From Natronospira bacteriovora (lineage in GTDB: Bacteria; Pseudomonadota; Gammaproteobacteria; Natronospirales; Natronospiraceae), in the NCBI RefSeq assembly GCF_030848495.1, contig NZ_JAVDDT010000002.1, positions 310,001 to 374,000 of the forward strand: 64,000 nucleotides of DNA. Reading direction: 5' to 3'. The notes below the pieces were generated by a model. That model searched no databases. It was not told the origin of the DNA and saw nothing but the letters and a program-made list of their open reading frames with translations. Position 1 is the stretch's first letter; each line of letters opens with the position of its first letter. Below, piece by piece: positions 29,284 through 29,832 of this stretch. The position numbers and the translations under genes are program-made.

Positions 29284-29359
29284 GGCTCGGCGGAGCTTTT
29301 CTCAATTCGGCTTCGTTGAGGCTTGGCCCCTTCGAAGTCGGTGACGGGGGGCGCGTTCC

Positions 29360-29471
29360 GGTCCTGTATCGGGTGGGCTTGCTCAGGGACGCCGTGAATC
29401 CATCCCTGGAGGCTCTGGTCGCGACATCCATGTCGCTCACAGCCCTGAGCAAGCCCACCCGATACAGGACC
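29360..29471. repeat. Large hairpin element A (29-bp perfect stem, 54-nt loop)
   Basis: Arms 29360-29388 and 29443-29471 are perfectly complementary over 29 bases. The loop carries a small internal hairpin GCGACA-TCCA-TGTCGC. The loop is nearly identical to that of element B in inverted orientation, but the arm sequences differ. Confidence 0.92.
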
Positions 29472-29478
29472 TCCTCTA

Positions 29479-29595
29479 GGGGGTGTCACCTCGCCTGTGC
29501 CAACTGAGCGTTGTGTTCAGGCGGCTATGCAAGCGGTTTTTTCAAGTTGAAGCCTGAACTTTCCTTTCTGCAGGCACTGCGAAGGTGACACCCCC
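29479..29595. repeat. MITE-like 117-bp core with terminal inverted repeats
   Basis: Ends GGGGGTGTCACCT and AGGTGACACCCCC are perfect 13-base inverted repeats, extended imperfectly to GTGCC/GGCAC. The interior holds another inverted pair and no ORF. No clear target duplication is seen, so the mobile-element reading is tentative. Confidence 0.45.
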
Positions 29596-29603
29596 CAACA
29601 TTA

Positions 29604-29716
29604 GGCCTGGGGTCAGTCGGGGGCTTTGCAGGGCTGTGAGCGACAGGACGTCGCGACCAGAGCCTCCATGGACGGATTTACGGCGTCCCTGCAAAGCCCC
29701 CGACTGACCCCAGGCC
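29604..29716. repeat. Large hairpin element B (30-bp perfect stem, 53-nt loop)
   Basis: Arms 29604-29633 and 29687-29716 are perfectly complementary over 30 bases. The reverse complement of the loop matches loop A with about five differences in 54, while the stems differ at many positions yet each remains fully paired. Confidence 0.92.
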
Positions 29717-29797
29717 GGGACACCCCGTCACCGACTTCGAAGGGTCCAGTGCCAATTCGAAGCCATAAACCGCCACCGACTTCGAAGCCCCAAAACC

Positions 29798-29832
29798 AAA
29801 AAAGCACCGAATGGAGACCATCCGGTGCTTTC
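29798..29832 (-). terminator. Terminator of the M28 peptidase gene
   Basis: On the minus strand AAAGCACCGGATGG pairs imperfectly with CCATTCGGTGCTTT around a short loop, followed by a run of T residues. It lies about 25 bases past the peptidase stop. Confidence 0.75.

Follow-up and report, generated by a model that had tools for sequence, protein, structure and literature searches.

What kind of DNA fills the 572-base gap between the convergent genes of a Dus family protein (plus strand) and an M28 peptidase (minus strand) in Natronospira bacteriovora, and how did it get there? An earlier note on the window, as we call the whole 64,000-nucleotide stretch that was analysed, had described in this gap a palindrome of four nested layers, which was read as an inverted duplication around a short unique core or as the insertion of one element into another. 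Here we report an analysis of this locus, of its copies in the same and related genomes, and of its kinship with the YPAL repeats of Yersinia, described by De Gregorio in 2006 and reviewed in PMC2229807. With a probability of about 0.7, we interpret the structure as a non-autonomous, hairpin-targeting mobile DNA doublet, which is made of two inverted YPAL-type half-units and moved in trans. The broader statement that it is a YPAL-type mobile doublet is held with high confidence; the YPAL-type repeat itself is already known, and the doublet with unlike ends is a variant form.

Geometry and genomic setting of the palindrome

The extent of the palindrome, the shared centre and the gap length given in the earlier note were recovered; the coordinates of the layers are listed in Table 1. 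The outer 22-bp pair is centred at 29536, the two T-hairpins jointly at 29537.75, and the 13-bp and 8-bp pairs both at 29537, the four layers being concentric within 29536-29538. Inverted repeats in the gap reach 30 bp, far above the 14 bp or less obtained in 40 dinucleotide shuffles, and the left half aligns locally with the reverse complement of the right half with a score of 181 (shuffle maximum 43), or 78 versus 33 in shuffles after removal of both hairpins. The arms match continuously from GGCTTCG at 29309 through GTTCAGGC at 29522 against 29764-29552. Because a single continuous alignment joins the two halves, the four layers are the best-conserved patches of one diverged terminal inverted repeat of about 214 bp; thus, the pairs noticed earlier are real, but they are not separate elements, and the repeat reaches outwards to 29309 and 29764. 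The apt description is therefore an inverted duplication, with 214-bp arms on either side of a unique 29-bp core. The whole element (29309-29764) comprises 456 bases, contains no genes, and is bounded by GGCTTCG...CGAAGCC, its end sequence being GGCTTCG..TTGGACCCTTCG.

Table 1. Features of the element and its right flank, in window coordinates (R1, covariance model built from seven arms)
Feature	Positions	Strand	Support
Left arm, half-unit, arm type A	29309..29522	+	alignment with right arm 181 vs shuffle maximum 43; clade membership
Right arm, half-unit, arm type B	29552..29764	-	arm alignment; clade membership
Unique centre, 29 bp	29523..29551	.	arm alignment
Outer 22-bp perfect pair, left copy	29328..29349	+	
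Outer 22-bp perfect pair, right copy	29723..29744	-	
Left T-hairpin, 29-bp perfect stem topped by two mini-hairpins	29360..29471	+	fold z -12.3; R1 177 bits (high by construction)
Right T-hairpin, 30-bp perfect stem topped by two mini-hairpins	29604..29716	-	fold z -11.0; R1 163.6 bits (high by construction)
YPAL/RU-2-type core, left arm, GACGCCGTGAATCCATCCCTGGAGGCTC	29388..29415	+	24/28 identical to RU-2
YPAL/RU-2-type core, right arm, GACGCCGTAAATCCGTCCATGGAGGCTC	29660..29687	-	25/28 identical to RU-2
13-bp pair, left copy	29479..29491	+	
13-bp pair, right copy	29583..29595	-	
Inner 8-bp pair GTTCAGGC, left copy	29515..29522	+	
Inner 8-bp pair, right copy	29552..29559	-	
Extra end-motif copy past right end	29770..29787	-	17/18 identical to 29725-29742
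Terminator-like hairpin of M28 gene, adjoining the element; probable target neighbourhood	29800..29832	-	0.7 expected in shuffles, weak alone

The earlier note had also pointed to the dus-to-M28 gap of relatives as informative. Two relatives, G001 and G002, lack the element at this locus, and the stop codons of their two flanking genes are 13 and 25 bp apart. The gap in the window was either filled after divergence or emptied twice; given these short orthologous gaps, the window copy looks like an insertion. Past its right end, the extra end motif is followed by the terminator-like hairpin of the M28 gene. A duplicated target was not recognised here.

Copies of the doublet and the spread of YPAL-type units

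A genome search, likewise envisaged in the earlier note, located one more intact pair in the window genome (G000), at C3:93172-93614. Other copies lie at C2:103.0-103.7 kb and at C3:89.5-90.2 kb, and the one at C8:37.7 kb is degenerate, having seemingly lost its second hairpin. The R1 model gave 31, 48, 26, 29 and 3 matches in G000, G001, G002, G003 and G004, respectively (G001-G003 are close relatives), some of which represent one hairpin counted again on the opposite strand. When 18 arms of three genomes were placed in a tree, many inner branches of which lack resolution, one arm type split off with 98/98 support, and all four intact pairs of G000 and G001 have one arm inside that clade and one outside. 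Since every one of these pairs combines both arm types, the doublet, with its two unlike ends, is passed on as a single unit, which is probably older than the split between the two species. Given this repeated pairing of the two arm types, the parts did not arise independently at unrelated sites. That the element has been mobile in the lineage of the window itself is inferred from the short orthologous gaps and the repeated copies.

One mini-hairpin of the C2 copy and one of the C3a copy each enclose a hairpin repeat of 269 bp, in opposite orientations (L215:2557-2825 and L214:2582-2852). This repeat consists of two hairpins between 31-bp arms, and the genome holds about seven other, weaker matches to it; either the composite spread while carrying this passenger, or the same spot was hit twice. 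The insertion of one element into another was not the origin of the window copy, although these two sister copies do have a further repeat nested in one hairpin. Another YPAL-type family of the window genome, numbering about a dozen units, has a different, nearly constant stem (L004, L008, L009, L011 and L014-L021); its units adjoin A/T tracts, several of which, as judged by eye, are those of terminator-like hairpins. G002 has at least seven dispersed copies of a different near-palindromic composite of roughly 530-680 bp, and identity along their alignments is mostly 71-84%. The second hairpin of one composite there (L073:1769-1882) is topped by TAAAAATCGTCCAAGATTTTTA and not by the usual mini-hairpin.

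The 28-nt core shared by both window arms is also present in the published RU-2/YPAL sequence (PMC2759123), which agrees with the left arm at 24 and with the right arm at 25 positions. The exact core pattern was found in at least 117 stretches, and the genera among the matches listed include Yersinia, Stenotrophomonas, Lysobacter, Arenimonas, Methylotuvimicrobium, Alishewanella, Pantoea, Sedimenticola and others; a looser pattern added two matches in viral contigs. Matches to R1 occur in 39 of the 274 sampled genomes of the class Gammaproteobacteria. Among neighbouring units at most 400 bp apart, 16 of 22 face each other, a count based on match positions transcribed by hand and including several pairs from one alternating array. 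The widely spaced facing pair L163 was set aside, the genes between its units being ordinary host genes. No match to the window element was detected in plasmid and phage records; with YPAL as query, 17 enterobacterial plasmid records were matched, 15 of them over most of the YPAL length. In plasmids of E. coli, Citrobacter and Klebsiella (L257-L259), a YPAL-like copy lies 3' of an iron-containing alcohol dehydrogenase gene; these three inspected records represent the same locus and are therefore uninformative on movement. A search of E. coli genomes with an Enterobacter copy as query found none.

In Rfam, both arms gave matches over the core to the family Ysr224 (RF02770), with 25.4 and 21.3 bits, which is below its gathering cut-off of 70 bits. 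Ysr224 is filed as a small RNA and sits within YPAL; the wide occurrence and the features of YPAL-type units suggest that it is part of a mobile repeat, so that its classification as a regulatory RNA may need another look. Matches to microRNA families were discarded as generic perfect hairpins.

Target sites were analysed in 20 Yersinia copies with defined ends. Direct duplications of at least 5 bp flank 15 of them, compared with 1.2% expected from swapped flanks, and in eight copies (L121, L135, L138, L141, L175, L177, L207 and L211) the duplication, 16-30 bp long, holds a whole terminator-like hairpin. These measurements agree with the 3-26 bp given for YPAL, at or near sites of dyad symmetry, in PMC2229807.

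Stem evolution, strand asymmetry and rival explanations

The stems change in sequence while their pairing is kept. In seven arms of the window genome, 99.4% of cells pair; of the 30 outer pairs, 20 have both partners changed, and one-sided changes are absent. Across 114 diverse units, in an alignment fitted to the model, 91.1% of cells pair, with a covariation score of 0.636 versus 0.145 when shuffled. Within the genus, mispaired intermediates in the stems are almost absent. The mispairs recorded on the core strand of 158 units are unequal, with 159 A.C versus 33 G.T and 139 pyrimidine-pyrimidine versus 31 purine-purine (29 versus 5 by stem family). Decay without selection should yield equal numbers, and the excess hints at selection on one strand. 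It suggests that the fold was maintained on the strand opposite the core strand, where the mispairs are G.T and purine mismatches. The asymmetry points to selection on one single strand, and RNA and single-stranded DNA fit it equally well. A lagging-strand transposition model would favour a replication-strand bias, and the lack of such bias in G265 (60:56) counts against the explanation by single-strand mobile DNA.

Taken together, the recurrence of the composite, the empty orthologous gap, the covarying stems, the mispair asymmetry and the Yersinia duplications make a mobile doublet the best explanation. According to the proposed scenario, a putative enzyme supplied in trans would read the conserved T-shaped tip, with its CATCC-type loops, on one single strand, excise or copy the doublet, and insert it at hairpin feet, for example those of intrinsic terminators; the window copy would have entered in this way close to the terminator of the M28 gene, in the gap that this gene and the convergent dus gene enclose. 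The stems may drift while pairing is kept, perhaps by recopying one arm from the other during mobilisation. We give this single-strand hairpin mechanism of movement even odds. It is a tentative and rather doubtful extension that one superfamily of YPAL type spans the class, in which a putative enzyme with an undescribed transposition chemistry would read single-strand T-hairpins, insert at hairpin feet and duplicate whole terminators, while recopying from arm to arm would allow the stems to change together.

The unit might instead be kept mainly as a structured RNA, acting as a 3' end stabiliser, attenuator or small RNA, with its spread secondary. Besides the mispair asymmetry, the listing of Ysr224 as a small RNA and the cotranscription of YPAL with upstream genes, reported in PMC2229807, fit this alternative. 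However, no preference was found for the transcription orientation of co-directional genes (17:17), with genes called by a simple ORF rule; by the same rule, 33 of the 79 units that stand alone are located between convergent genes. Wobble pairs and one-sided stem changes are almost absent within the genus, no promoter-like site was found in the region, and a symmetric doublet gives each strand one unit. We regard maintenance chiefly as RNA as unlikely.

Somewhat less probable still is a REPIN- or BIME-like doublet moved by a resident Y1 (RAYT-type) transposase. Inverted doublets do resemble REPINs, and Y1 genes are commoner in the genomes with the element (34 of 39 versus 152 of 235 others, p 0.005), an association uncorrected for relatedness and confounded with genome size and kinship. 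The unit sequences, however, lack the short GTAG-tagged hairpin of REP structures, which occurs beside Y1 genes. The sole Y1 transposase gene of the window genome (L062:1319-2023 on contig C5) is flanked by different hairpins of the TGTGGGAG... type, and the corresponding gene in G001 and G002 by classical GTAGGAGCGGAT REPs. Ownership by this transposase was rejected, as the adjacent hairpins belong to different repeats and the core is missing from the weak matches that the model gives there. Nor was any clear copy of the element found at the Y1 loci of 12 named or complete genomes, and G003, G096 and G255, which are rich in copies, gave no Y1 match, so Y1 is not required. A reverse transcriptase as the mover was dismissed, RVT_1 matches being absent from 9 of 14 element-bearing genomes. 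Overall, the Y1 and RVT_1 searches and the reading of loci revealed no mobilising enzyme, and none of the loci read has a transposase between element-type ends.

Finally, long palindromes are generally prone to error through assembly or through inverted duplication by template switching, but such an artefact at this single site, a concern of the earlier note, is very unlikely here, because the two arm stems differ while each is perfect internally, and further doublets of this kind are present elsewhere in the genome and in another species.

Comparison with known repeat systems

The doublet, which we favour as mobile DNA, shares with classical MITEs (ERIC, Correia/NEMIS and RUP) a small foldable sequence without genes; it differs in that no parent IS with matching ends was met among the loci read, and its Yersinia kin duplicate 4-30 bp and not one fixed short length. 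Some TIR families of TIRYT genes (PMC3733652), compared by description only, are likewise long, self-complementary and dimeric, but no Y1 gene with the element's ends was met here. In REPINs and BIMEs, moved by RAYT (Y1) transposases (PMC3116915, PMC3733652), two inverted palindromic units also form the dispersed unit, whereas the window units lack the GTAG tag, are much larger and have no Y1 gene between them.

YPAL/RU-2 differs from the window element in being a single unit of about 168 bp, as opposed to two half-units of about 214 bp with unlike ends in a 456-bp doublet; stem and flanks are unrelated in sequence, and the target duplications reported for YPAL in PMC2229807 have no recognised counterpart at the window copy. 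The likeness lies in the 28-nt core of both arms, in a long stem topped by two mini-hairpins, as indicated by folds and covariation, and in dispersed occurrence without genes, apparently adjoining dyad-symmetric sites. YPAL was originally described from Yersinia and a small number of related bacteria, and units with the same core are now found in 35 of the 222 sampled genera of the class, where they combine a constant tip with freely varying paired stems and a strand asymmetry pointing to a single-stranded molecule. The old question of what moves YPAL repeats thereby becomes testable across many genomes.
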